Shown here one piece after another: positions 10,451-26,734 of a stretch of DNA of 64,000 nucleotides. The notes under the pieces were generated by a model. It was not told the DNA's origin, searched no databases, and saw nothing but the letters and a program-made list of their open reading frames with translations. The translations under genes were made by a program, and so were the position numbers. This DNA is from a virus, in IMG/VR virus record IMGVR_UViG_3300025941_000001, positions 29,825 to 93,824 of that record. One strand, 5' to 3'. How positions within the stretch are numbered: position 1 is the first letter of the stretch; every line of letters begins with the position of its first letter.

Positions 10451-11548
10451 TTAGCTCTCGCGGGTGATCAGGCGAGCCAGCTTGATCTGCTTGCGCTCCG
10501 GGAACACTCGGACCCACGAGTTGGAATGGGCGAGGTTGTTCGTGGTCGCGGCGTTGGTCGGGCCACCTTCGGTCGCCGGGCTGCCGACGTAGGCATGACC
10601 GACCGGATGGATACACCACTCGACGCGGTTGTAGAGCGTATCGCTGCCCGCGCCGTTACCACGGTCCGGGTTGCGGAAGACTTCGGTCGGGACGATGGGC
10701 GTACCCACGCCGAGACGGAACGAGGCAGGGCCGACCAGCCACGTATGGTAGATGCCTGCGGCGGTCTGCGCGCCGTTGGAAGCATCGCCCGCCGGGTTGG
10801 GCATACCGTCGTCCACGATCACGCGGCGGCCGAGGAAGGTCGGAATGTTGACCTTGCCTTCGCTATCCGGGATGAAGTCGATCAGGTTGTTCTTCTGGGC
10901 GGTGGAGTACACGATGGAGTGCATGAACACTGCCGTCACGTCCTCGGCCGCGTCGCCGAGCAGGGTCGCGGTGTCGATGAACGCCGACGCCGAGAAGTTG
11001 GTCACGCCAGCCGTGAAGCTGGAGCCCTTGATATCGTGGGTCAGGTCGTTCTGATGACCGTAGGCGGCATTGATGCCAAGCTGGCCGGAGCGACCGAGGG
11101 TCGGGTCGGCAAGCGCGTTGTTGGCGAAGATGCCGTTGGCGACCGCGACGAACGCACGCTGCAACCGGCGGACCCAGTAGTCGGACACGCGGCTCGCGAT
11201 GCTCTGCATCGGGTCGGACCCGGCCAGAGCGGTCGCCAGACGCATCGTGCTCCACGAGGCGTTACGGCTCAGACGAACCGCGACTTCGGCGGAGGTCTGG
11301 GTGATGTTCGGGGTCGAAGACGTGTTCGGGTCATCGCTCGACACGTTCTCGGCGGGGTCGCCGATGTCCTGCCAAGACGGGACCGTGAAGGTCAGGCCGC
11401 CGCCAGCGAGCAGGTTGTCGAGGAAGTCATCACGCGCGGCGACGCCGCTCTGGATGATCGCGGTCTTCTCCATCGTCAACTGTTGGGTATACGGCGTGAA
11501 GACGGCGGGGACGATAACGTCGCTGATCTGGGTGGACACGTTGACCAT
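10451..11548 (-). CDS. Major capsid (coat) protein
   Basis: 365 residues starting MVNVSTQISDVIVPAVFTPY; GGAG lies 7 bases before this ATG, so the 39-codon in-frame extension upstream is rejected. Motifs of the siphophage coat family are visible: GVAARDDFLDNLLAGGG, TVPSWQDIGDP, SRNASWSTMRLATALAGSDPM and SDYWVRRLQRAFVAVANGIF. Length is normal for an HK97-fold coat protein without a delta domain; a separate scaffold gene lies upstream. Flanked by terminators and preceded by late promoter copy B with a ~120-base leader, so it probably forms a single-gene, highly expressed unit. Confidence 0.93.
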   Translation of the reverse strand: MVNVSTQISDVIVPAVFTPYTQQLTMEKTAIIQSGVAARDDFLDNLLAGGGLTFTVPSWQDIGDPAENVSSDDPNTSSTPNITQTSAEVAVRLSRNASWSTMRLATALAGSDPMQSIASRVSDYWVRRLQRAFVAVANGIFANNALADPTLGRSGQLGINAAYGHQNDLTHDIKGSSFTAGVTNFSASAFIDTATLLGDAAEDVTAVFMHSIVYSTAQKNNLIDFIPDSEGKVNIPTFLGRRVIVDDGMPNPAGDASNGAQTAAGIYHTWLVGPASFRLGVGTPIVPTEVFRNPDRGNGAGSDTLYNRVEWCIHPVGHAYVGSPATEGGPTNAATTNNLAHSNSWVRVFPERKQIKLARLITRES

Positions 11549-11589
11549 GATAATCTCCGATGGCTTGTGGGGTGGAAGCTTTTTCAAGC

Positions 11590-11605
11590 ACCTCCCCATG
11601 GAGGT
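11590..11605 (-). promoter_or_regulatory. Leader hairpin of coat gene
   Basis: ACCTCC-CCAT-GGAGGT, a perfect 6-base stem with a tetraloop in the untranslated leader about 40 bases before the coat ATG. It may stabilise the leader; no direct overlap with the ribosome site at 11555-11559. Confidence 0.35.
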
Positions 11606-11675
11606 ATCTTGGCTGATGCTGATGGGGTCACGACTGCCCTGCATAGGGGCGCGAAGCCATTGCAAATTCTGGCGT

Positions 11676-14350: not shown

Positions 14351-14814
14351 TACACGGGCTCACTGACAAAGAGACATCGAAGACCGGCCATAGCCGCGTC
14401 TGGCACTTCGGGCATCACAAGCCATAGGGGCGTGTGAGCAGGGATGGTTCGGTCGGCAAAGTCCAGCGTCGCATGTTGAGTGACGCCTTCGAAGTGCGCG
14501 GTGCCGATCACGTTGGCTCCGGTGCCGAGAAAGCCCGCGAGATTGTCCGTGAGGACGATGTCGCATGACCCGGCCGTTGGAAACGTGCACGAGACCGAAC
14601 TCAAGAGATCGCTCAGGCCGTTGAAGTAGTGCTCTCCGGTTTCGTTGAGCGCCAACTCGAAAGACTGAAACGACGTGAACGGGAACAGCGCCTCACTGTT
14701 GAGCCCGAGCACATGATATCGAACGAGCTTCCCCTTCTTGTTCCAGATATCGCTCTGGCGCAAATAGAAATCGTCGTTCAAGTCGTTGATGTAGAACTCG
14801 CCATTGACTGTCAT
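14350..14814 (-). CDS. Virion-region protein, unknown
   Basis: 154 residues, soluble and beta-rich (MTVNGEFYINDLNDDFYLRQ). Contains SCTFPTAGSCDIVLTD and ends CLFVSEPV. Coupled by overlaps to both neighbours, so it is made together with the two-domain surface protein and may be its partner. No family recognised. Confidence 0.65.
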   Translation of the reverse strand: MTVNGEFYINDLNDDFYLRQSDIWNKKGKLVRYHVLGLNSEALFPFTSFQSFELALNETGEHYFNGLSDLLSSVSCTFPTAGSCDIVLTDNLAGFLGTGANVIGTAHFEGVTQHATLDFADRTIPAHTPLWLVMPEVPDAAMAGLRCLFVSEPV

Positions 14815-15056
14815 TCTGGGGGTCCGTCTCCGCTTGAGCCCGCTCCGATAATACTCCCGCCGCCGCCTCCGCCCTTTTGGATGATCCAGTGACGTTCAAG
14901 GACGGTCGAGACGGGACGAGGTTTGAGCGCGCCGAGCGTAGCGCCCGCCTGTCGCGCCTTGCGCGCGGCGACAGAGACGCCGTACTTTTTGACGTATTCG
15001 CCTTGCGCGGTGAGGTTCCAATTCTCCGGAGCCCAAGGATTGGCAACGTTCGTCAT
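14811..15056 (-). CDS. Small NPW/WNLT-motif protein, scaffold-tail paralogue
   Basis: 81 residues. Residues 6-46 (NPWAPENWNLTAQGEYVKKY onward) match the C-terminal ~40 residues of the scaffold gene immediately upstream (NPWSKAGWNMTKQGALVRQL), position for position at N-P-W, W-N, T, Q-G, A, A, A-G, G-A and K-P. The rest is a Gly-rich tail with IIQKGGGGGGSIIG. The shared motif suggests both proteins dock to the same partner, perhaps the coat or portal. Own promoter copy C and terminator lie just upstream. Confidence 0.7.
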   Translation of the reverse strand: MTNVANPWAPENWNLTAQGEYVKKYGVSVAARKARQAGATLGALKPRPVSTVLERHWIIQKGGGGGGSIIGAGSSGDGPPE

Positions 15057-15132: not shown

Positions 15133-15996
15133 TTACGCCGCGTCAGCGGCGGGCTTAGTTGCGCCGATAAACGACCCGGCTTGCGCCGCGATCTCGCCAG
15201 CTTTCACTTCGCCAAGCTGACGCACGAGCGCGCCCTGCTTGGTCATGTTCCAGCCTGCCTTCGACCATGGGTTGTTCGACCCGCCGTAAGTGCCCTTCGG
15301 TCCGCCGCCTCCGCCGGAGCCGCCGCCGACCGATGCAGGCCACCAATGCGGTGCCTTCTCGACCATGTCGCGGAGCCATTCCTTGGGGGTCAGGCCCGGG
15401 ACGGTGCCGGGGACATCCTTGGTGATGATGCGCCCGTCCTCGGTCTTCTCGAAGATGCGGGAGCCGCGCAGAACCACGTCGTCGAGGGCGGTGACTTGCA
15501 CCTTCTCGGCCACGGCAGCATCACGGACAGTGCGCTCGATGCTGTCCATGGTGATGGAGCCTTTGAGGTTGGTGACTTCGCCATCCTTCTCCATGACGAG
15601 CTTTTTCTGTGCGTCGAGTTGACGCTCCAGATTGGACTTGTCGCGCTCCAGCGGAGCGACAGCCTGCTTGACGCGGGCCGCGATGATCGGCTCAAGCTTC
15701 TCTTGGTCGAGGTGACCATCCTTGTTGATGGCTTCGAGTTGAGCCTTCACAGTTTCAAGCTCGTTGGCCTGAGCGTGGAAAGCCTCGGCGTCAACGCCAT
15801 CGAACGAAGCGAGTGCGGTCTTCGTCGCCTTGTGGTCGGCCTTTTCCTTGCGGAGGGCTTCCTGCACGCGCTCGACATCCGCTTGCGTCTTCACGCCTTG
15901 GATGCCGGTCAACTCCCACTTGCCGTTGCGTTCCGTATAGAGGTCCGCATAGCCCTCCGGAATGTCTTCGGCGGTATCATAGATTGTCTTCAACAT
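15133..15996 (-). CDS. Capsid scaffolding protein
   Basis: 287 residues. The N-terminus (DIPEGYADLYTERNGKWELT) is the typical opening of a large phage scaffold family; residues about 40-150 are charged heptads predicted as coiled coil. A Gly-rich linker at about 225-238 leads to a C-terminal NPWSKAGWNMTKQGAL motif shared with the next gene. Position between the portal block and coat gene supports the role. GGAGAAATCC precedes the ATG. Confidence 0.85.
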   Translation of the reverse strand: MLKTIYDTAEDIPEGYADLYTERNGKWELTGIQGVKTQADVERVQEALRKEKADHKATKTALASFDGVDAEAFHAQANELETVKAQLEAINKDGHLDQEKLEPIIAARVKQAVAPLERDKSNLERQLDAQKKLVMEKDGEVTNLKGSITMDSIERTVRDAAVAEKVQVTALDDVVLRGSRIFEKTEDGRIITKDVPGTVPGLTPKEWLRDMVEKAPHWWPASVGGGSGGGGGPKGTYGGSNNPWSKAGWNMTKQGALVRQLGEVKAGEIAAQAGSFIGATKPAADAA

Positions 15997-16025: not shown

Positions 16026-16367
16026 TCATTCCGATGAGGACCCGGCCATCCGGGATTTGCGTTTGTGGAGCAATCCTTTGCCGAGGCGAAGGATATGCTG
16101 CCGGGTGATCTCCGTCGCGCCGTTGGCTCCGTTCAAGCGACGAGAACCGATGACGCGATGGGCGATATCAGTGTTGTCCTCGCCAGCGGTGAGGCCAACA
16201 CTAATTGCGGTATGGATGCGCTCGGCATCCTGAGCAGCGATGTTGCGCGCCCAGTGCGCAAGCTCGTGCCCGTGTATCTTGAGCACCTTCTTTTTGCCGG
16301 TGCGGAAGCGATGCTTGTCCCACGCGCCGCCGTCGTGCTCGTGATCTCCAATCTCTGGGTCGCTCAT
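16026..16367 (-). CDS. Short MuF-like head morphogenesis fragment
   Basis: 113 residues. The part from about 40 on (HWARNIAAQDAERIHTAISV, then DIAHRVIGSRRLNGANGATE and ITRQHILRLGK) matches the signature of MuF/SPP1-gp7-type minor head proteins (small-residue.G....GADG.TE.TR). Full MuF proteins are 250 or more residues; here only the signature section remains, with a His/Asp-rich start. Place after the portal gene block agrees with that family. It could be a compact functional version or a remnant. Confidence 0.62.
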   Translation of the reverse strand: MSDPEIGDHEHDGGAWDKHRFRTGKKKVLKIHGHELAHWARNIAAQDAERIHTAISVGLTAGEDNTDIAHRVIGSRRLNGANGATEITRQHILRLGKGLLHKRKSRMAGSSSE

Positions 16368-17353
16368 TTGCGTCCCTCATTCTCGGTCCAGTCCGGCATC
16401 AGCCCGATCTTCTGCGGCGCGAAGACCGTGTGCTCGGCGTCGGCGGTTCGGTTAGTTGCGCCGTGCGGGCCGTAGTTGACCCATGAGTTCTGTCCGCGCG
16501 TCTCCGATGTCATCGCTTTGCGCGCGAGGTCCGAATACATCGAGGCGTGAGAGCGCCAAGCGTTCTCTTCTCCCTCGGCGCGAAAACCATTGCCTTCTTT
16601 CAAGTGCCCCATCATGTCGTGCACGATGCGGAAAACGTCGTTGACGACCACGTGCCTGCCGTCGATCACTTCGCCGGTCGGCCGGAGCATCGGGTTCGTC
16701 TCGGCCTTGTCGTTGCTCTTGTCGGTCTTGTTGCCGTAGCCGAGGTCCGTGGGAAAGCCCCACCAATGATTGTTCTCGCTCACATCCATCGCCGCGAGAC
16801 GCGGCGAGAGCGCATAGGGGTCCTTCTGTCCGGGCTTGACCCACTCGACCTTGAGCCCGGTCTGCTTGATCACGTCCCACTGAGCGAGCGTCTCTTTCGC
16901 CATCGCCTCGTAGCTGGCCTTGACCTCGGGGTTGTTCGGGTCATCCTTCATCTTGTCGTATTCGTCGGCGATCTTCGCGGCGCGCTCTTTGTCGAGCTTC
17001 GCGTACTCGGTCGGCGGCGAGTACGGCATCCCGGCCTTGTCCATGTAGGCCTTCGCCGCGTCGCGGAGCCGACCGATGGGACCGGGGACGTACCACTGAT
17101 CGCCCAGTTGAATAGGCTTTTGCGGCAGTCCGACGAGCGGCTTCGCGCCCGCTGCAACTTTCTCCGCCTGCGCCTGCGCTTCCTCGGGCGTGCTCGCGCC
17201 CGCGTGCGCGGCCGGACCGATGGGTCGCTGTTCCGGCGGGTGCATCGGCTGTTGCGTGACAGCCGCGCTCGCTGCCGCTACGCCCTTGAGCGGAACGTCT
17301 TGCGTGCCGAACTCGCCGTGGTTGTTGCGAGCCTGTGCGGGGTTATATGTCAC
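16364..17353 (-). CDS. Head-region protein with conserved His-rich domain of unknown function
   Basis: 329 residues. After a disordered N-terminus (to ~85), the domain carries FRIVHDMMGHLKEGNGFRA, GEENAWRSHASMYSDLARKA, ETRGQNSWVNYGP and FAPQKIGLMPDW. These clustered His, Asp, Glu and Asn residues look like a metal or substrate site. I recall related domains in large phage polyproteins, with no established activity. It overlaps the genes on both sides and lies between portal and MuF-like fragment, where phages often carry virion-borne or injected effectors. Enzymatic role is inference. Confidence 0.65.
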   Translation of the reverse strand: MTYNPAQARNNHGEFGTQDVPLKGVAAASAAVTQQPMHPPEQRPIGPAAHAGASTPEEAQAQAEKVAAGAKPLVGLPQKPIQLGDQWYVPGPIGRLRDAAKAYMDKAGMPYSPPTEYAKLDKERAAKIADEYDKMKDDPNNPEVKASYEAMAKETLAQWDVIKQTGLKVEWVKPGQKDPYALSPRLAAMDVSENNHWWGFPTDLGYGNKTDKSNDKAETNPMLRPTGEVIDGRHVVVNDVFRIVHDMMGHLKEGNGFRAEGEENAWRSHASMYSDLARKAMTSETRGQNSWVNYGPHGATNRTADAEHTVFAPQKIGLMPDWTENEGRK

Positions 17354-17594
17354 TGGGCAGATGCTCTCTCAAATGGCGAAACGCCGCCTTGATGTGATGA
17401 TGGCGGAGCGCAACGATCTTTTTCGTCAACTCGTCTCGGGTCAGCATGGCATCGCTGACCTTTGTTCGATTGACGCCCGCCACGTCCATCAAGTTCGTCT
17501 CGATGAGGTCGCGAATTTGCGGTTCGCAACCATCAAGGATGTCGATGGCCTCGTGAAAGGTCTTTACGATGTGCGCTCCGGCCGGATCACTCAT
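17343..17594 (-). CDS. Small helical protein after portal
   Basis: 83 residues, all-helical (MSDPAGAHIVKTFHEAIDIL), ending REHLPSDI. ATGA overlap with the portal stop and 11-base overlap with the following gene. Position suggests a head assembly accessory; family unknown. Confidence 0.65.
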   Translation of the reverse strand: MSDPAGAHIVKTFHEAIDILDGCEPQIRDLIETNLMDVAGVNRTKVSDAMLTRDELTKKIVALRHHHIKAAFRHLREHLPSDI

Positions 17595-19306
17595 GCGCCG
17601 CCTTTGGTCTTCCCGGCCGACGCGCCCTTCTTGCCGACCTTGCGCTTCAACGGAACAGGTGACCCACGCGTATGGCCCTTTGGACTTTGACTGTTCGGTT
17701 TGATCGGAACGTTCGAATTGGGAGGCGCAGTCGATGCAGGCCCAGCCGGAGGTGCAGTACCGGCGGGAGGTGCAGTGGCTCCGGGCGTGCCCGCAGCCGG
17801 ATCAGAGATAGGGTCGTTGCCCTCATCCAAGAATGTATCATCGGTGACAGACTGTTGGAACGGCCCAACCATCGTGCCGAGCATCGACGCGGCTTCCTCT
17901 TCGATCTGTGCGTTCTCTTCTTCAAAATCCATCTCCGTCATGTCGTTAAGCTTCATCATGCGGTGCATAGAACGAAGAGACAGGGGCAGGCCCAGTTGCT
18001 TCGCTTGCATGAAGGCAAGCAGAGCAGCGCCAGCGACAGTCTGATCGGCGAAGTCGGTCGTCGGTTTGACACTGACTTCATCCGGGTCTTCTCCAACCCA
18101 CTCGGCCGCGTACTTGAGCGCTCGCTCAAGCCCGGCTCCGGCGGCCTTCGCCACGGACGAGATCGTGGTCGTGCGCGCCGCCAGTCGAATGCGGAGCGCC
18201 TCGCCGCTCTGGCCAGTGTCAGTGCCGACATCCAAAAACGCGTTGCCCTCTTGGGCCGCGCGCATCTTGTCGTTCTCCAGCGATTGACGCATCTCGCCGA
18301 GACCGGCGGCCGAAACGCCGATGTACTTCGCGTCGCCGCCGATGCGGAGGTCGATCACGCCCTTGTTGCCGACGCGCAGAGTGTTGGGCGCGGCTTCATC
18401 GACGTTGCCGCCGATGATGACGAGGGTGTTCTGGCCCTGCAAGTAGAGCGTCTGCCGGTAGTCGGCTTCGCCGCGATAGATCGCGAGCGACAGGTTCGAC
18501 AGGCCGAGCAATGGGGAAATCTCGGGCTCGGGCACGAGATCGTTCGCGCCGATGAAGACGAACGGGATTTCGTCGAGCGTCTTGCCCGCGATGCTAGGAT
18601 AGATGAAATCCGTGAGTTGCGGCATGTTCGTGTCATTGACCTTTACGGCGACGCCGAACGGCGCGCCCGGGGGCGGACGCTCCCATCCGCTATCAAGCTC
18701 CGCCTGTCCGCCACGAGTGAGGACGCGGTACTTGCGCTCGGTCTTCCACGTGAAGCCCTCACGCCGATAGCCGCTCTCGTCGAGCACGACGAGTTCAAGC
18801 TCTTGCATGCCTTCGTCCAGTTTCCCCGCGTCCCAGTTGATGATGCGCTCGGGATTGTAGAACGAAATGTAGGGAGTTGCCTTGTCGGCATCGACGCCCT
18901 GCGGCGTATCGACAAGCAGGCCGCAGCGCCCGTAGACGAGTTGCGCGACGTTGATCCTGCGGAGCAACGCTTGCAAACCTTCGCCCTGCACGGTCGCCTT
19001 CGTCATCATGTCTTCGAGTTTCTTCGGCAGCACGATCTCGGCGGGCTTGTTGTGCATGATGCCGACCATGGCTTTGACGGCATCCTTGACCACGTCATGG
19101 TAGTAGGCGCGCAACAGATACGCCTCGTAGTCTTTCCAGCCGGGGGAGGTCGGCGTCGTCATCCCGTCCTGCACCATGCCCTCGGTCGCCGGGAGATAAT
19201 CGAGACGCTTCGATTTCACCGCGCGCTCGCCCGCGTAGGTGTCGCTCATCTGTATCCATTCGCCGAGCCGCTCGACGTATTCGGGATGCTTGTCCGGGAG
19301 TGCCAT
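17591..19306 (-). CDS. Portal protein (DUF4055 type)
   Basis: 571 residues forming the dodecameric DNA gate at one capsid vertex. The N-terminus (DKHPEYVERLGEWIQMSDTY) and the core DLVPEPEISPLLGLSNLSL plus AIYRGEADYRQTLYLQGQN are characteristic of DUF4055 portals. The last ~90 residues are Pro/Ala/Gly-rich and then strongly basic (PLKRKVGKKG), probably flexible. It follows the large terminase directly, as usual. A promoter-like element lies at 19333-19360. Confidence 0.92.
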   Translation of the reverse strand: MALPDKHPEYVERLGEWIQMSDTYAGERAVKSKRLDYLPATEGMVQDGMTTPTSPGWKDYEAYLLRAYYHDVVKDAVKAMVGIMHNKPAEIVLPKKLEDMMTKATVQGEGLQALLRRINVAQLVYGRCGLLVDTPQGVDADKATPYISFYNPERIINWDAGKLDEGMQELELVVLDESGYRREGFTWKTERKYRVLTRGGQAELDSGWERPPPGAPFGVAVKVNDTNMPQLTDFIYPSIAGKTLDEIPFVFIGANDLVPEPEISPLLGLSNLSLAIYRGEADYRQTLYLQGQNTLVIIGGNVDEAAPNTLRVGNKGVIDLRIGGDAKYIGVSAAGLGEMRQSLENDKMRAAQEGNAFLDVGTDTGQSGEALRIRLAARTTTISSVAKAAGAGLERALKYAAEWVGEDPDEVSVKPTTDFADQTVAGAALLAFMQAKQLGLPLSLRSMHRMMKLNDMTEMDFEEENAQIEEEAASMLGTMVGPFQQSVTDDTFLDEGNDPISDPAAGTPGATAPPAGTAPPAGPASTAPPNSNVPIKPNSQSPKGHTRGSPVPLKRKVGKKGASAGKTKGGA

Positions 19307-19375: not shown

Positions 19376-20971
19376 TTAAGCGCCTGTGCGTCCGGACTTC
19401 ATAGTCCGAACCTCGAAGCGGAGCATGTATCGCGTTTCGTCGCCGTTATGATCTTCGCTCTCGTCGTCAACGTCGTCGATCTTCAACTCGTCACGCGGGA
19501 GGACAGGGACGCAACGAAGCCATTGAGGGCATTCGGTGGTGATGAACAGGCCGGGCGTTTCCCGGAAGCCGCCCGGGGGCCGCTTGGTCGCCTTGAGGGC
19601 TTTACGGATTTGCTCCCATCCCTGCTCACGCGAGCCCGCGCCCTTGTCGGCGCGTTCCCAGAAAATGCCGCGATGCTTGACGCCGTTGATCGTGACCGGC
19701 TTCTCGAAGTCGTTCGCGATGGTGACCTCGGAGCCGTTCGTGTTGTCGTCGAAGATTTGCGTGTCGGCCGGGCCGCGCGAGACGCGGGTCCACGATGCAT
19801 CGGCTGCGCGCAGGCCCCACTTGATCTCGCGCTCGATGATGCCCTTCGCGATGTCGGGGATGAGCATGCGCGAGCCTTCGTTCGCGACGCCGCGCCAGCC
19901 GTACCATTCCTTGAACCGAAACTTGTCGCCGCGCAGGGTCGAGCGCACGCGTCCATCGCGAAGCTTGAGATCGGTGCCGTCGCTGACAGCGTACCAGCCG
20001 ACCGAGAACGGCTTCGACGAACCGTGGTCGTATGCGCGATAGATTTTCCAGCCCGCCGGAATGTCGAACGGCTCCATGACGACCGTGTCGCGATATTCAT
20101 ACCAGATGTCGTCGAACATGCCGCCCGCGACGATGTCCCACGACCCATCGAGCCACGCTGCCTTTTCCGATGCGTTGCGCGCAGCGGCGGCGATACGGCC
20201 TTTGTACTCGGGGTCGGCGTGCAAGAGCAATTGGTTCTCGTCGAGATACCCGTGGATGGCGCGACGCGGCGGTTCCTTGTTGCCCTCGGCGTCAATATCT
20301 CCGACGATGAGCGGACCGACGCACGGACGCGTGCCGTTCGGCCCCATCTCGCCGTTGATCGGCAGCCGCCAGCGCGCCTTGACCCAGTTGTGGCCGACGC
20401 CGTATGGGTTCGTCGTCGCACGGATTTTGCGCGGCATGCCCTTGATGGTCGAACGCGAGCACGAGAACATGCTCTTGTAGCAATCCGGGTTCGGCCAGTT
20501 GGTCAACTCTTCCCAACCAATCCACGGATAAGCGTGGCCGTGGTAGTTGTCGTAGTCGCTGCGAACGTTGAAGTGCGCGAAGTAGAGACGCTCGCCCGTG
20601 GGCCACTCCCACATCGTCTTCACTTCGTTGTAAATCGCATCGGGCCAGATGCGCTTGATCCATTTCTTCGACTTCTCGATGATGTCGCGCAACTGCGGAT
20701 GGGTCTGACGGAAGAGGATGCCTTTCCATTCCGCGCCGTGGCCTTTACCGATCTCTTGACAGAAATCCATGATGAGCGCGTCGGTCTTGCCCGGGCCGCG
20801 CGTACCCTCGTAGAGAACCTCGACAGTCGGATCAGCGAGAAAGAACGTTTGCGAGCCGGGTTGGGGAGCCCAAGCGACTTGCTTCAACACGCCGTTAGCG
20901 TCCCGCACATACGGGACGTACTCGCCGTTGATCGACTTGAAAGTCTCGACTGATCCGGTAAGCTCAAACAT
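19376..20971 (-). CDS. terL: Terminase large subunit
   Basis: 531 residues; the packaging motor and headful or site nuclease. Walker A is EGTRGPGKTD (55-64) and Walker B WIGWEELT (150-157) with the catalytic Glu; TTNPYG at 187-192 is the coupling motif. The nuclease domain starts with IYRAYDHGS (Asp 315), and further acidic residues follow in RGPADTQIFDDN. Length and domain order are complete. It overlaps the small subunit gene by 8 bases. Confidence 0.95.
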   Translation of the reverse strand: MFELTGSVETFKSINGEYVPYVRDANGVLKQVAWAPQPGSQTFFLADPTVEVLYEGTRGPGKTDALIMDFCQEIGKGHGAEWKGILFRQTHPQLRDIIEKSKKWIKRIWPDAIYNEVKTMWEWPTGERLYFAHFNVRSDYDNYHGHAYPWIGWEELTNWPNPDCYKSMFSCSRSTIKGMPRKIRATTNPYGVGHNWVKARWRLPINGEMGPNGTRPCVGPLIVGDIDAEGNKEPPRRAIHGYLDENQLLLHADPEYKGRIAAAARNASEKAAWLDGSWDIVAGGMFDDIWYEYRDTVVMEPFDIPAGWKIYRAYDHGSSKPFSVGWYAVSDGTDLKLRDGRVRSTLRGDKFRFKEWYGWRGVANEGSRMLIPDIAKGIIEREIKWGLRAADASWTRVSRGPADTQIFDDNTNGSEVTIANDFEKPVTINGVKHRGIFWERADKGAGSREQGWEQIRKALKATKRPPGGFRETPGLFITTECPQWLRCVPVLPRDELKIDDVDDESEDHNGDETRYMLRFEVRTMKSGRTGA

Positions 20972-21764
20972 CGTCGTCGCCGCCCTCTTCGAATGTCACG
21001 GTCGGACGCCCGGTCTTGCGGTAGTTGCTCTCGATTTCGTTGAGGTCGGTAGCCGCAATCGTTCGCATCGGGACCACGAGCACGCCGCCGCGCACGTTGA
21101 CATCGACGCTGGCCTTGTTGCCATAGGTCTTCGACATGCGGGTCTTGAGGATGAACATCGCAAGGTCCGGGTCCATCTTGTAGACAGTCTCCGGAACGGG
21201 AGCGCCGAACTCGTCGGTGAGATAGTTATCCGGGACAAGCTCGGGCAAGCCGAGATCGCGCGCATCCGCGAGCTTCTTTGGGTCGTACTTGTATTGCACA
21301 CGTCCCTGATAGACGAGCGTCTCGTCGTAGCCGGTCGCGCGCTTGATCGTCGCAGCCTCGACCTTCTGGACGCCCGCCTCCATGGCGATGTCCCACGCTT
21401 CATGGAAGCGCACGGTGTTGTCGTCGGTGCCATTCTCGTCGTCGTCGCCCATGACGATGTCGAAGCCATCCCCCGGTGCGCCTTCGAATGATTTCTGGAG
21501 CCAATATTTCAACGTCGTGTAGTTGATGCCGAGCCGACGCGCGACATCAGCGCCGACCGGCATTTCGGTCGCGTAGCTCAGCGCACGGTTGAGGCGTTCG
21601 GGGGTGTTCTTGCGGGCTGCGCGATTGACAGGGTAAGATCGCGAGCGCTCTAGGACGGCTTTGCCTGATCGGTCGAGGGGCACTGCGCCGTCAAGTAGGT
21701 TCTCTTCGGGCTCGGCGACCGGGTCGGGGCCAAGCATCTCATCAAGCTCTTTGTCGCCGCTCAT
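20964..21764 (-). CDS. terS: Terminase small subunit
   Basis: 266 residues from the ATG at 21764, chosen because AGAGGA lies 9 bases upstream; the GTG at 21788 has no such site. A helix-turn-helix is visible (VARRLGINYTTLKYWLQKS), and the C-terminal half keeps the terminase-small pattern with KKLADARDLGLPE and DLAMFILKTRM. It would bind the packaging site and recruit the large subunit. The immediate adjacency and overlap with terL supports the call. Confidence 0.85.
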   Translation of the reverse strand: MSGDKELDEMLGPDPVAEPEENLLDGAVPLDRSGKAVLERSRSYPVNRAARKNTPERLNRALSYATEMPVGADVARRLGINYTTLKYWLQKSFEGAPGDGFDIVMGDDDENGTDDNTVRFHEAWDIAMEAGVQKVEAATIKRATGYDETLVYQGRVQYKYDPKKLADARDLGLPELVPDNYLTDEFGAPVPETVYKMDPDLAMFILKTRMSKTYGNKASVDVNVRGGVLVVPMRTIAATDLNEIESNYRKTGRPTVTFEEGGDDDV

Positions 21765-21836
21765 GCGGTGGTTCCTCTCAGTATTCACCGCACAAGCGAT
21801 GGAGCGCGCACATGCGCGCCTCGTCCTATACGGGTT

Positions 21837-22261: not shown

Positions 22262-22582
22262 TCACCTCTGATAGTTGCCGCCCATGGCGCGCTTGGTCGC
22301 GGCCCTGACGTTGTTCGTCGGGAAACTGATCTTGCTGTCGCGCGCCTTCATGCCGGGGTGCGTCGTGATCGGCGTCTGATCGACCTTGCGGGTCTGCCAG
22401 TCGCCAGCATCGGCACTCGGGTCCGCCGGGAGACCATAGTCGCGATCCATGCGCGTGCTCTGGCCGGGAAGGTCGCTCGACGGTCCCTGATAGCCGTTCT
22501 GGCCGTAGCCATTCTTGGCCTTCTGCTTGGAACCTATGAGGGCGTCGGAGCCCGCAGCTTGAGCGTCAATTGGGTCGGTCAT
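22262..22582 (-). CDS. Small polar protein of late accessory block
   Basis: 106 residues, Gly/Gln/Asp-rich, disordered-looking (NGYGQNGYQGPSSDLPGQST) with a basic C-terminus (RAATKRAMGGNYQR). AAGGA precedes the ATG. Three bases separate it from the exported-protein gene. Function unknown. Confidence 0.62.
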   Translation of the reverse strand: MTDPIDAQAAGSDALIGSKQKAKNGYGQNGYQGPSSDLPGQSTRMDRDYGLPADPSADAGDWQTRKVDQTPITTHPGMKARDSKISFPTNNVRAATKRAMGGNYQR

Positions 22583-22600: not shown

Positions 22601-22945
22601 TTAGCGGCCGAGGTTCGACGCCTCGGTGAGCACAGCATGGCCGAGGTTGCCGTTGACCGACTGGCCGTTGGCGTCCTTCATGCCCCACTTCGCGGGCGCG
22701 TCCGGAAACTTCTTGAGCTTCGGCGACGGGCTCAGCGGGTTCGCCGGGTCCGCGTCGGGGCCGACGCCGGGATTGGCCGGGCTCACGCCCGCCATCTCAG
22801 CGGTGCGGTCGCGCATGCCATACGTGGTCGGGAATTTCGTCTGGGGCCGCTTTGCAGCGCCATCGCGCGCAATGTTGGTGTTGGTCAGGTCCTTCATGCC
22901 TTGCTTGGCAGGGGCCGCAGTGCCGCCGTTCGTCTGATACGCCAT
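22601..22945 (-). CDS. Small Pro/Gly-rich protein with repeated GMKD motif
   Basis: 114 residues, basic and low complexity. It contains QGMKDLTN at about 15 and WGMKDANG at about 86, internal echoes of the MKD start shared by the tagged genes upstream. Promoter-like copy D lies 64 bases before the ATG, and GAGG 8 bases before it. Possibly a virion protein; family unknown. Confidence 0.62.
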   Translation of the reverse strand: MAYQTNGGTAAPAKQGMKDLTNTNIARDGAAKRPQTKFPTTYGMRDRTAEMAGVSPANPGVGPDADPANPLSPSPKLKKFPDAPAKWGMKDANGQSVNGNLGHAVLTEASNLGR

Positions 22946-23225: not shown

Positions 23226-23675
23226 TTACTCCCCCGTGCCGCCTGTCCGGATTTCTTTTCCATGCTTGACATCCCAGATGGCGATTTGGTTGTGCTTGCG
23301 GCCAGTGTTGACGGCCTCACGCTTGCTTCTGATGTTGTGGGATACGTCGAGATATGTTTTGCCGGTTTCCTTGTCGGTCCAGCCGCCGATGTGCGCTCGT
23401 GGATCACGCAACACGTCGGCGTGCGCGTTGGCATATTGCGAGATGATTTCGTGGCCCTGCGGACCGCTCAGCGCCTTCTCGGAAACGATTTGCGTGTGGC
23501 CGGGTATCGAAACCATAAAGCCGTTCGACGGCATGCGCCCGTTCGTCGGTCGAACCGAGAAGCCGCCGGGGTTGCCGGTGACAGTCTTGATCACGCTGGG
23601 ATGGAGCGGGAGCTTGCCGATTTTGGCGACGCCCGAGTTGTGGGCGTTGGAGCCGTGGCCGAGTGCGTCTTTCAT
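23226..23675 (-). CDS. MKDALGHGSN-tagged protein 1 (polyvalent-protein-like domain)
   Basis: 149 residues; first ten MKDALGHGSN. After a ~25-residue linker comes a domain with GGFSVRPTNGRMPSNGFMVS, PGHTQIVSEKAL, DPRAHIGGWTDKETGKTYLD and KHNQIAIWDVKHGKEIRTGG. I recall this domain as a recurrent module of large phage polyproteins that enter the host with DNA, with no fixed function. A late-expressed, tagged free-standing copy fits an injected or capsid-borne protein (inference). Three bases separate it from its neighbour. Confidence 0.72.
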   Translation of the reverse strand: MKDALGHGSNAHNSGVAKIGKLPLHPSVIKTVTGNPGGFSVRPTNGRMPSNGFMVSIPGHTQIVSEKALSGPQGHEIISQYANAHADVLRDPRAHIGGWTDKETGKTYLDVSHNIRSKREAVNTGRKHNQIAIWDVKHGKEIRTGGTGE

Positions 23676-23676
23676 G

Positions 23677-24009
23677 TCAGAGCCATTTCGATTTCTTGAT
23701 GGGATGTTCGTTGCCTTGGTAACGTTTGCGCGCCTCGCGCTCGTCGATCAGCGAGCGGAGGTGCGCGGTATTGGCGCGATACTCATCGAAGATCGGATGG
23801 CCGGTCATTTGCATGATCTCGTTGCCCTTGACCATGCCGTGACCCATGTCGATGAGCTTGCTGTTGATCTCGCTGCTCTTCGCCTGCGCCTTCTCATACG
23901 CCTTGAGCAGGGCAGCACGCGGCAACTCCGAAATAGGTTTCGGCTTGCGCGGCAACGTCTCGATGCCAGTGTTGTGCGCGTTGGAGCCGTGACCGAGCGC
24001 GTCCTTCAT
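23677..24009 (-). CDS. MKDALGHGSN-tagged protein 2
   Basis: 110 residues; tag MKDALGHGSNAHN shared over 13 residues with protein 1. The body is helical and basic (RAALLKAYEKAQAKSSEINS) and ends HPIKKSKWL. ATGA overlap with the next tagged gene. No family recognised. Confidence 0.7.
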   Translation of the reverse strand: MKDALGHGSNAHNTGIETLPRKPKPISELPRAALLKAYEKAQAKSSEINSKLIDMGHGMVKGNEIMQMTGHPIFDEYRANTAHLRSLIDEREARKRYQGNEHPIKKSKWL

Positions 24010-24296
24010 TTGAACCCCCGACGAGCGTCGCGATCTGTCTTCATCTCTTTCTTGAAATTCTTGACCATGAACCCATTGTGATCTCGGAGCGCGGAGACAG
24101 CCCGATCAAGATTGGCCTTCTCCATCCGGTATTCGGTTGAGGTTCTGATGTGCTCCGGCGGCAGCCCCAAGGGGCCTCTTGGGTACTTATCCATGGCACG
24201 AGCATGCTGCTCAACGGTCGCGGTCAGGCCCGCGTTGTGCGCGCGATGGAATGCATAGTCATGGGCATTGCTGCCGTGGCCGAGAGCGTCCTTCAT
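24006..24296 (-). CDS. MKDALGHGSN-tagged protein 3
   Basis: 96 residues; tag followed by HDYAFHRAHNAGLTATVEQH and a helical basic body ending RDARRGFK. Overlaps genes on both sides by 4 bases. Function unknown. Confidence 0.7.
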   Translation of the reverse strand: MKDALGHGSNAHDYAFHRAHNAGLTATVEQHARAMDKYPRGPLGLPPEHIRTSTEYRMEKANLDRAVSALRDHNGFMVKNFKKEMKTDRDARRGFK

Positions 24297-24529
24297 TTGA
24301 TCCTCACACGCGAGTTGGGATTGTCAACGCGATGAAACTGGGCGATCTTCTCGGCGACAGCGCGACGGCGCGAGCCGCCGACCTTCTGCCAGATGTTGCC
24401 CGAGGTCGTGACCTTCTGCCCGGCCGCCGTGACGCCGTGGAAAGCGATGTGCTTCTCGACCTTGAACTGATGGCGCGGCGACTTGAAAGCTCCGCGTCCG
24501 TTGCTGCCGTGTCCGAGTGGGTCTTTCAT
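24293..24529 (-). CDS. MKDPLGHGSN-tagged protein 4
   Basis: 78 residues, the shortest tagged member, with Pro for Ala in the tag (MKDPLGHGSN). The body is highly basic (pI clearly high) with QFKVEKHIAFHGVTAAGQKV and GGSRRRAVAEKIAQ, so a nucleic-acid-binding role is possible. Linked by ATGA overlaps on both sides. Confidence 0.7.
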   Translation of the reverse strand: MKDPLGHGSNGRGAFKSPRHQFKVEKHIAFHGVTAAGQKVTTSGNIWQKVGGSRRRAVAEKIAQFHRVDNPNSRVRIK

Positions 24530-24765
24530 GGCGTCCTCTTCATGCTGTTATAGCCCCGCTCCCACTCCGCCGCAAGTGCCCCGTCATTTGGGGTTAACAA
24601 TTCGTTGTGCGGGTTCTCCGCCGGACGCCCGAGCCGCCGGGCCTCGCGTCCCTTGTAGAAGGCGATCTCCAGCGGGGACATGGACGGCGTCGGCGTGAAC
24701 TTCGAATGCGGCACCAAAATGGAAACGCCGACCGAGTGGGTCGGCTTTGGAAATCGTTGGGCCAT
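24526..24765 (-). CDS. Untagged RMF-like small protein
   Basis: 79 residues, the only untagged gene inside the tagged array. The segment AFYKGREARRLGRPAENPH followed by AAEWERGYNSM resembles the ribosome modulation factor pattern (G..A...G......P......W..G), which in bacteria dimerises and silences ribosomes. Similarity is by pattern only. It shares stop and start bases with the tagged genes around it. Confidence 0.6.
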   Translation of the reverse strand: MAQRFPKPTHSVGVSILVPHSKFTPTPSMSPLEIAFYKGREARRLGRPAENPHNELLTPNDGALAAEWERGYNSMKRTP

Positions 24766-25253
24766 TAGCGCCCCTTGAGCAGCCGGTGGATTGCACTTGC
24801 TTCCTTACCGCCGATACGCCGCCCGCTGCGGTTCGACGAAGCAATGGCCTTGTTGACCGCGTCGGGGCTGTAACCATGACGACCGAGCGTGCTGTCCGGA
24901 GACGGGTTGCTCGGCCGCATGGTCGGGCCTGTGCCCTTCGACGCACCGTAATCGTGCATGCTGTCGTGGATTGGGGCCGGTGCCGACTTCGGTCCGCTCG
25001 CGAGCGAGGCCTTTGCGTCCTGATCGGCGTAGCGCTGCAACTGGAACTGGGCGGTCGCGTGAGCGTCGGCGATGTCGTCCGTGTGACTGTCGGCCTTCGA
25101 TTGATAGACGCCGTTGTGGAAAAATTTAACGACCTTCTCGCCCCACTCCGGGTTGTTGTAGACCTTCGCCGAGTGCGGTCCGTTGACATGCGTCTTGATC
25201 AGACGCATTCCCCTCGTGCCCGTGTCGCTGCCGTGGCCCTTTGCGTCCTTCAT
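24765..25253 (-). CDS. MKDAKGHGSD-tagged protein 5
   Basis: 162 residues; tag MKDAKGHGSD. A domain at about 20-75 has HSAKVYNNPEWGEKVVKFF and SKADSHTDDIADAHATA, which looks like a folded beta-alpha unit, followed by a Pro/Ser-rich linker and a basic helical C-terminus (SAIHRLLKGR). The ribosome site GAGGA lies at the base of a hairpin (25262-25292). Confidence 0.7.
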   Translation of the reverse strand: MKDAKGHGSDTGTRGMRLIKTHVNGPHSAKVYNNPEWGEKVVKFFHNGVYQSKADSHTDDIADAHATAQFQLQRYADQDAKASLASGPKSAPAPIHDSMHDYGASKGTGPTMRPSNPSPDSTLGRHGYSPDAVNKAIASSNRSGRRIGGKEASAIHRLLKGR

Positions 25254-25261
25254 GATCAGTC

Positions 25262-25292
25262 CTCGTTGTTGAGATCGCCCGCAGACAACGAG
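25262..25292 (-). promoter_or_regulatory. Hairpin overlapping ribosome site of tagged gene 5
   Basis: CTCGTTGT / ACAACGAG, 8 perfect pairs with a 15-base loop, in the 69-base gap before the gene at 25253. Its 3' arm shares GAG with the Shine-Dalgarno sequence, so folding could limit translation. Confidence 0.35.
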
Positions 25293-25322
25293 CCATGGTA
25301 GCGTGTAGCCGCTGCGCTCTTG

Positions 25323-25796
25323 TCACTTGTTGTGATACCGGATATCGAACCCGTGTTGGTATGAGGTGGACACGCTCCGAGCTTTTGGATGCTTCGCGAA
25401 AGCCTCGGCTGCCGCCGCTTCGCGAGTGGCGTGCGGGCCGTACTCGCCGAGCTTGGAGCCGTTCTTCGACGAGACCCGAGCATATAGCGGGCGAACGCCG
25501 CTCGCTACCATGCTGTCGTGCGTCGGAGCCGGGTCCGATTTCGGGGTGCCGCTGTGAAGCTGATCCGCTGGCGCGTCCGACTTGCCGCCGCGCGCCCGAT
25601 ACGCGAGCACGGTCGAGGCGTCGTTGACTTGGTCCGCGTACTTGTTGATGCCGCGCTGATCGCCCATCTCTTGCGCGTTGCGACCGGCCTCGTGAGCATC
25701 CCGTTGGATGTAACGAAGCTCATCGTTCGTCTTCGCGTGATAGGCGTGACCCGGAATTGGTCGCGCGTTGGAGCCGTGTCCCAGTGCGTCCTTCAT
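25323..25796 (-). CDS. MKDALGHGSN-tagged protein 6
   Basis: 157 residues. After the tag, residues 13-75 (AYHAKTNDELRYIQRDAHEA onward, to DQVNDASTVLAYRARGG) form a helical domain I have seen in phage proteins of no known function; a second part with GEYGPHATREAAAAEAFAKH resembles a small alpha-beta insert. The two domains flank a Pro/Asp linker, so this member looks modular. ATGA overlap with gene 7. Confidence 0.7.
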   Translation of the reverse strand: MKDALGHGSNARPIPGHAYHAKTNDELRYIQRDAHEAGRNAQEMGDQRGINKYADQVNDASTVLAYRARGGKSDAPADQLHSGTPKSDPAPTHDSMVASGVRPLYARVSSKNGSKLGEYGPHATREAAAAEAFAKHPKARSVSTSYQHGFDIRYHNK

Positions 25797-26203
25797 GACT
25801 TGAACTTTCCAAGACCGCCTGCGAAGTGTCCGCCATTGAACCGAGGCGCGGGCGACTTCTTGGTGCTCATGGTCATCCCGGTGTTGGATGACGCTGCACG
25901 ATACTTGCCCAGTTGCTTCGAGGTGTTGATTTTGGTGATCTCGCGCGTGGACTTGTTCTTGTAGCTCGTGTTCGGCTGCGATGCCTTCACGAACAGGTCG
26001 CGTCGAAATCCCGGATTGGTCGTTGCAAGGTGATTGGCCATGGCCTCGACGCGAGCGTCGTGCCCGGCCGGATCATTGACAGCCTTGGAGCGGAGGTCGG
26101 CGGCGATCTGCTCGAAGTGACGCCGACCGAGCTTGGCCGGGAGCGCCTTGATCATCGCCGAATGAACTCCGGCGTCGGAGCCGTGGCCGAGTGCGTCTTT
26201 CAT
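25793..26203 (-). CDS. MKDALGHGSD-tagged protein 7
   Basis: 136 residues. The body has FEQIAADLRSKAVNDPAGHD and EAMANHLATTNPGFRRDLFV, a helical unit, then a basic Ser/Lys/Asn-rich tail ending GLGKFKS. Asp replaces Asn at tag position 10, as in protein 5. Function unknown. Confidence 0.7.
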   Translation of the reverse strand: MKDALGHGSDAGVHSAMIKALPAKLGRRHFEQIAADLRSKAVNDPAGHDARVEAMANHLATTNPGFRRDLFVKASQPNTSYKNKSTREITKINTSKQLGKYRAASSNTGMTMSTKKSPAPRFNGGHFAGGLGKFKS

Positions 26204-26206
26204 GGT

Positions 26207-26482
26207 TCACATTCCTTTGCGGCCGACTTCGCCATTGCGAATGCGCGTGACGAGGTTGCGATTGTACTCGCGTTCTGGAGATCGATCATTCCACGTCTGG
26301 AGCGGGGCCTTGATCATCGTTTTGCCCATCGCGCTCATGAGCGCTGCGCTTGCCGAGGCGTTCGACGACTGCGGGATGCCGCCGCCCTTGAGCGAGGTCA
26401 CGTGCGTCAATCGCGCCCTGAGCGCATCGAGCATTGCGCCGTCGCCGGAGCCGTTGCTCCCGTGGCCGAGTGCATCCTTCAT
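26207..26482 (-). CDS. MKDALGHGSN-tagged protein 8
   Basis: 91 residues; transcriptionally first of the tagged genes. Tag is followed by GSGDGAMLDALRARLTHVTS and a basic C-terminus (NRNLVTRIRNGEVGRKGM). Three bases separate it from gene 7. No domain recognised. Confidence 0.68.
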   Translation of the reverse strand: MKDALGHGSNGSGDGAMLDALRARLTHVTSLKGGGIPQSSNASASAALMSAMGKTMIKAPLQTWNDRSPEREYNRNLVTRIRNGEVGRKGM

Positions 26483-26494
26483 CGGAGGGCTCCG

Positions 26495-26734
26495 TCAGAC
26501 GTTGTGGTAGGTGCTGTCGTGCTTGCCGAGAACGGCGTCGGCCTTGTGCCTGATCTTCGCGGCCTGCTCGGGGGACAGCTTGCCTTTCGCGACCATCTGG
26601 GTCGCACGGGCCTTGGCGTTCGCGGCATGCGATGGGTCGTTGACCGGGTACTTCCCGGGCTGGCCCTTCTTGCCGGGCAGCGCGAATTTTCCCTTGGGCA
26701 GCGCGTTGCGTTTCTTGGCTGTGAGTTTGGCCAT
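26495..26734 (-). CDS. Small basic KKRNALPK protein
   Basis: 79 residues from the ATG at 26734 (GGAGG 7 bases upstream); the longer frame to 27025 is rejected. MAKLTAKKRNALPKGKFALP followed by RKYPVNDPSHAANAKARATQ-like sequence (here GKYPVNDPSHAANAKARATQ) and a C-terminal helix is a widespread phage family (DUF6582-like) of unknown function. Very basic, probably binds nucleic acid. It heads the late accessory operon below promoter copy E. Confidence 0.78.
   Translation of the reverse strand: MAKLTAKKRNALPKGKFALPGKKGQPGKYPVNDPSHAANAKARATQMVAKGKLSPEQAAKIRHKADAVLGKHDSTYHNV

Follow-up and report, generated by a model that had tools for sequence, protein, structure and literature searches.

Why should a run of neighbouring viral genes that encode different proteins all begin with the same ten residues? 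The question is raised by a 64 kb window (the whole stretch of DNA analysed here) out of the 93.8 kb record of a soil phage, IMGVR_UViG_3300025941_000001, in which open reading frame (ORF) translations give eight co-directional genes on the minus strand, within positions 23226-26482 and upstream of the terminase genes, that all start with MKD[AP][LK]GHGS[ND]. Five begin with MKDALGHGSN and one each with MKDALGHGSD, MKDPLGHGSN and MKDAKGHGSD; all start at ATG, and the chance expectation of KDxxGHGS at a given position, for the composition of the window, is about 3e-8. We conclude that this MKDxxGHGS leader, hereafter the tag, is likely to be a new and probably uncleaved capsid-targeting signal that labels small, separately encoded effectors to be packaged and injected, akin in logic to the leader of the T4 internal proteins and unrelated to it in sequence. 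Directly readable from the DNA are the common leader itself, the selection on the peptide, its exclusively N-terminal position, the placement of the array among head genes, the composition of the bodies behind the tag and the recurrence of body domains in proteins of the injected type elsewhere.

A degenerate tag search of a viral collection returned 70 stretches and a second search, for forms starting MA, MP, MS or MT before KD, returned 55, the contigs being partly the same. From viral contigs plus two bacterial-genome contigs we gathered 277 distinct tagged proteins, up to 11 per contig, so the tag is not local to this window. In the contig DNA retrieved, K[DEN]xxGHG[SATN] occurs 350 times, in every case at most three residues from a start codon. 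Unanchored searching of 13 whole tagged records gave 4-13 copies in each, the reversed pattern used as a control giving none; a few copies in these records are far from the array, and those read out are also gene starts. Among 84,980 bacterial genomes the tag was found in two stretches, both contigs of metagenome-assembled genomes of Hyphomicrobiales. A literature search did not find MKDALGHGS in print, the three matches to GHGSN concerning unrelated subjects. In 150 aligned representatives, whose mean column identity over the whole alignment is 7%, K2, D3, G6, H7 and G8 are invariant, and 72 of the 277 proteins have one additional residue (A, P, S or T) ahead of KD.

Is the conserved entity the peptide or the DNA that encodes it? 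For five body families we compared members of the same family between contigs. Synonymous divergence (pS) is 0.50-0.70 in the tag and 0.60-0.68 in the body, whereas the ratio of nonsynonymous to synonymous divergence (pN/pS) is 0.13-0.20 in the tag against 0.37-0.57 in the body, with 2.6-3.8 times fewer amino-acid differences in the tag. Because synonymous change in the tag is as great as in the bodies whereas the residues are held, and because an extra residue before KD moves the DNA relative to the start codon with the peptide kept, it is the peptide that is conserved, and the claim of the first-pass annotation that the peptide itself is under selection stands. An explanation without any protein role would make the tag a device of translation or recombination, in which a recurring start region couples genes that overlap or permits modules to be exchanged by homologous recombination. 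The genes do abut or overlap; codons at identical tag residues match in 63% of pairs among the eight window genes against 40% expected from codon usage, so that within this genome the synonymous sites of the tag vary, yet somewhat less than at random; and the identity of residue 5, usually K or L, varies with the contig (mutual information 1.13 versus a shuffle maximum of 0.78), as gene conversion would give, a dependence that appears compatible either with a genome-specific partner or with exchange of tags within a genome. Against such a device stand the diverged synonymous sites beneath held amino acids, the MA-, MP- and MS-KD forms that displace the DNA relative to the start codon, and a gene resembling ribosome modulation factor (RMF) that is untagged within the same tightly spaced array. 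We regard it as very unlikely, and a DNA-level element was rejected as a candidate on the divergence of the synonymous sites.

What follows the tag differs from gene to gene. We defined body modules M1-M13 by iterated hidden Markov models, of which M10 slid into M3 as the iterations proceeded and was set aside. The eight tagged genes, all on the minus strand and correctly placed and measured in the first-pass annotation, are 23226-23675 (149 residues, tag codons 23646-23675), of body family M4 (NPGGFS...TGGTG); 23677-24009 (110 residues, tag 23980-24009), whose body has no relatives beyond near-identical contigs; 24006-24296 (96 residues, tag 24267-24296), of family M8 (phrog_7560, unknown function); 24293-24529 (78 residues, tag 24500-24529), of family M6; 24765-25253 (162 residues, tag 25224-25253), which joins M2 (AKVY; phrog_7884), the M3 motif and M7; 25323-25796 (157 residues, tag 25767-25796), with M1 (LRYI) and the M3 motif; 25793-26203 (136 residues, tag 26174-26203), of family M5 (HFEQIA); and 26207-26482 (91 residues, tag 26453-26482), with a weak M3-like region. 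The single untagged RMF-like gene reported inside the array is likewise present (24526-24765, minus strand; Pfam RMF, E 8.8e-7) and is a conserved member, homologs being present in many arrays on other contigs. The further statements that neighbours overlap by 1-4 bases and that the bodies are unrelated hold in part: four junctions overlap by 4 bases and one by 1 base, but the remaining three are gaps of 1, 3 and 69 bases, and 24765 and 25323 align over one stretch, at 34% identity (E 4e-7), in which lies a second motif, SGxPKSxPxPxHDSM, whereas pairwise comparison of the remaining bodies of the window array gave no convincing alignment past the tag region.

The partial likeness of 24765 and 25323 is what one would expect if the eight genes were recent duplicates that share only their slowest part. 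We find this scarcely credible, since the other bodies are unalignable, belong to different folds or families (ART, GNAT, the M4 alpha/beta domain, the helical M1) and have separate untagged relatives in other phages; tandem or recent duplication was rejected on these differences and relatives, and bodies alignable throughout, which the first-pass annotation had named as the sign of it, were not found. Three side observations concern these bodies. A motif A..LASGxPKSAPVPVHDSM lies between the modules of many tagged proteins (72, including 25323-25796 and 24765-25253) and in a few short untagged genes. Contigs L022, L036 and L047 hold untagged M6 paralogs elsewhere, two of them with cysteine, the tagged copies being without it. 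The RMF-like gene recurs untagged in arrays (L015, L022, L026, L036, L047, L058 and others) and is basic and poor in cysteine.

The tagged proteins nevertheless have a composition in common. Complete ones have a median length of 124 residues, with one above 250, and with the tag removed their median isoelectric point (pI) is 9.89, against 5.72 in 30 other window genes (p 4e-14). Cysteine accounts for 7 of 32,342 residues (0.022%), compared with 1.21% in early and 0.32% in structural genes; ipI, ipII and ipIII, taken from the T4 record NC_000866, have no cysteine and a pI of 8.9-9.5. A Pfam search of 150 tagged proteins recognised ART-PolyVal (E 1.4e-12), Arr-ms, GNAT and ParB_N in the bodies, mostly with at most one recognised domain per protein and in some cases two or three short modules, and for most bodies no function is predicted. 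Within tagged contigs the modules are nearly always tagged, the exceptions being fragments at contig ends, a few paralogs and some short genes that carry the M3 motif. AlphaFold2, given a mixed alignment as opposed to a family alignment, modelled gene 23226 as a confident alpha/beta domain after a disordered leader (model confidence 86.8). Foldseek with this M4 fold found viral proteins only, with no convincing relative in the PDB; the fold recurs in phage proteins of larger size, among them an annotated XkdF and another whose annotation names a zeta-toxin domain. The helical model of an M1 protein is weak (confidence 62.8), and PADLOC gave a single weak match.

Where such bodies might act is suggested by their untagged relatives. 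M4 matches part of gp34 of Synechococcus phage P60, annotated as an internal virion protein (E 7e-9), in which it comes after an ART-like stretch as judged by eye, and occurs also in E3 gp68 and in Sebata gp107, from a head gene region, the other half of which resembles window gene 16364-17353. In other contigs M4 stands at the end of open frames of 600-1170 residues, two of which also carry 2H phosphoesterase and DUF7178 and one GNAT. M1 is found untagged in 46 distinct ORFs, 37 of them longer than 250 residues (lengths being counted from the first Met of the open frame, with some frames ending at contig edges), and several are fused to M2, M5 or M7, which agrees with the early claim that the bodies include domains of phage polyproteins. 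A tblastn comparison of bodies M1 and M2 with 50,697 phage records gave no match. T4 gp21 prefers [LI]xE, and a glutamate in this setting lies 6-12 residues ahead of M1 in 24 of 48 cases where 7 are expected (p 8e-9); ahead of M2 the enrichment is not significant (n=6). In L207 M1 is preceded by MKTFKSFIVEG, which resembles MKTFKEF of T4 ipI and MKTYQEFIAEA of ipII/III, and all nine of the untagged-M1 contigs above 85 kb that were tested encode a T4 head protease and the T4 capsid protein gp23. As a side observation, EEVExIDE-like motifs are repeated between domains in L188, L191 and L207 (marine T4-like), as expected of a polyprotein cut by a head protease. The tag thus occupies the place where T4-like phages put a leader or likely cleavage site, on the same cargo.

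These relatives also bear on whether the tag might direct new proteins elsewhere, for example to terminase or to a late site in the host, with packaging never taking place. The array lies directly ahead of the terminase genes and the virion location of the tagged proteins is itself an extrapolation, both of which would suit such a role. But the same bodies turn up in P60 gp34, annotated as internal to the virion, and in T4-like proteins that carry sites of head-protease type, and their basic, cysteine-poor composition fits packaged T4 proteins and not terminase (1.15% cysteine); we think targeting outside the head improbable.

If the tag leads into the head, is it then removed? Head proteases of the T4 type (PF03420) and the HK97 type (PF04586) were not found in 14 tagged genomes, and PHROGs revealed no head protease among the window structural genes. 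The usual tag contains no Glu and no [LI]xE or AxE site; T4 gp21 and its relatives cut after Glu (PMC5694885). Since neither type of protease was found in these genomes, the tag probably stays on, and the protease processing that the first-pass annotation had offered as one reading is disfavoured. That the tag is a propeptide, guiding the proteins to the head and cleaved off afterwards (as in T4) by a phage or host protease that escaped recognition, would have precedents in T4 and P1 (PMC7697877, PMC9024508), and the tag is disordered and accessible in the model; set against the missing cleavage sites and the proteases looked for without success, removal strikes us as improbable too.

Capsid targeting or co-injection of an effector set, also put forward at the outset, is the reading best supported, by inference. 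We propose that each tagged gene would yield one small basic effector and that, late in infection, its exposed, disordered leader would bind a common component of the assembling head, the candidates for it being scaffold, portal and capsid as the constant neighbours of the array. The protein, presumably with its leader retained, would be enclosed with the DNA, as the virion location of its relatives suggests, and would exit with the DNA into the next host, where the body would act on host defence or metabolism. T4-like phages string such domains together with head-protease-like sites between them, and the tagged lineage, lacking a recognised head protease, gives each module its own gene and tag.

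Several points weigh against this proposal. The failure to find a protease covers two families, in records that are not necessarily complete. No cultured phage with the tag was found, six named phage records (Roseobacter RDJL3, Pantoea Vid5, P60, Sebata, E3 and T4) being without it, and of the 260-odd tagged proteins 109 had no match to any defined module. An M4 relative in L133 has no tag; packaging may not need one, or that gene may have changed role. Finally, the lineage looks from its genes like a long-tailed siphovirus, and injected proteins of the ART type are commoner in contractile-tailed phages (PMC9503650).

Capsid targeting by a common leader is already known; what is new here is the leader sequence, the lineage without a recognised head protease and the array of separate modules. 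A T4 leader can direct nearly any protein to the head interior, after which the leader is cut off (PMC7697877), and the T4 internal proteins Ip1-3 have nothing in common but the leader, their bodies inhibiting different host defence enzymes (PMC3012670, PMC12373910). As in ipI-III, a short N-terminal leader, within the 10-20 residues typical of T4-type leaders, is here conserved on otherwise unrelated small, basic proteins (by the median length and pI given above) that are nearly free of cysteine, with several genes per phage. Unlike T4, the tag reads MKDALGHGSN and not MKT[YF]xxF, having only MK in common with MKTYQEFIAEA; in its usual form it lacks a Glu after which a head protease could cut it, and PF03420 is absent from the 14 genomes; the head is of the scaffold-type siphovirus kind; and most of the genes stand in one array ahead of terminase. 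Head targeting of P1 DarB also uses an N-terminal signal, of more than 9 and at most 30 residues, 30 being sufficient for a reporter (PMC9024508), but the Dar proteins have no common leader (PMC9024508) and DarB is 250 kDa, whereas the tagged proteins are small and share one. Polyvalent proteins join 2-15 domains in one chain (PMC5512222); the tagged proteins overlap them in domain repertoire (ART-PolyVal, GNAT and ParB-like domains by Pfam) and in lying near virion genes (TerS-TerL-portal-scaffold, TerS and TerL being the terminase subunits), but here every module has a small gene and a tag to itself, in place of two or more disparate domains per polypeptide. P60 gp34 likewise has the body domain of gene 23226 beside its ART-like stretch, but it is a protein of 1,639 residues encoded among internal virion protein genes of a T7-like phage, in whose genome the tag is absent.

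If the proposal is true, ten residues suffice to recognise an entire class of phage effectors by sequence, just as the T4 leader once allowed for internal proteins, and the 277 candidates, most without a known family, are likely to be among the earliest phage products that the host encounters, offering a simple route to phage weapons against bacterial defences. Capsid targeting by a common N-terminal leader would then extend to siphoviruses of a lineage in which no head protease is recognised, the gathering of unrelated effectors into one head would be explained, and the tag could be transferred to other proteins to load them into phage particles. The head component that reads the label becomes a testable matter.

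The position of the array upstream of the terminase genes, noted at first for this window, is kept in dozens of contigs, where a single strand carries in order a phrog_16160 border gene, the tagged array (with or without the RMF-like gene), small conserved genes, TerS, TerL, portal, MuF, scaffold and capsid; in several contigs a cargo gene next to the portal gene lies between portal and MuF. In the window, all on the minus strand, the untagged conserved gene at the upstream border is 26495-26734 (phrog_16160), and beyond the other end of the array lie two untagged genes conserved across contigs, 22601-22945, which has three GM[KR]D repeats, and 22262-22582, between the array and terminase. They are followed by the terminase small subunit (20964-21788; phrog_4044, E 6e-10), the large subunit (19376-20971; phrog_979, E 1e-27), the portal protein (17591-19306; phrog_145, E 2e-108), a candidate head cargo protein next to it (16364-17353; phrog_3170, E 3e-14, the M4 domain being part of the same profile), with the N-terminal motif ARNNHGEFGT (RDxHGRWT in relatives), the head scaffolding protein (15133-15996; phrog_206, E 2e-37) and the major capsid protein (10451-11665; phrog_247, E 2e-100). 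Because a tape-measure protein and a major tail protein are also encoded in the window, the phage is taken to be long-tailed with a scaffold-type head; its nearest cultured relative by head genes is Roseobacter phage RDJL3 (58% identity in terminase, 47.5% in portal).

The genes right after portal in L011, L012, L026, L027, L048, L060, L064 and L071 carry a second N-terminal motif, M(T/A)(F/Y)xPxExRDxHGRWTxGG, ahead of bodies of about 330-800 residues, one of them ART-like; the version in the window is the ARNNHGEFGT of 16364-17353. The motif RDxxGRW also stands ahead of several domains in long proteins of L148, L151 and L156. Tentatively, and with more doubt than conviction, short [KR]D-x-x-G-[RH] motifs might be address labels for head cargo in several tailed-phage lineages, arisen independently or by descent. 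Two would be present here, MKDxxGHGS on small effectors before terminase and MTFxPxEARDxHGRWTxGG on larger proteins after portal, and the same cargo domains would move between three formats, namely the T4 leader with a protease-cut polyprotein, the RDxxGRW-punctuated polyprotein and single tagged genes. Two smaller observations concern the neighbouring genes: the last GM[KR]D repeat of 22601-22945 reads WGMKDANG..., with a faint resemblance to the tag, and the C-terminal part of the scaffold (NPW...WNxTxQGxxV...QAGxxxGAxKP) is repeated as a gene of its own, of 81 residues, directly downstream at 14811-15056.

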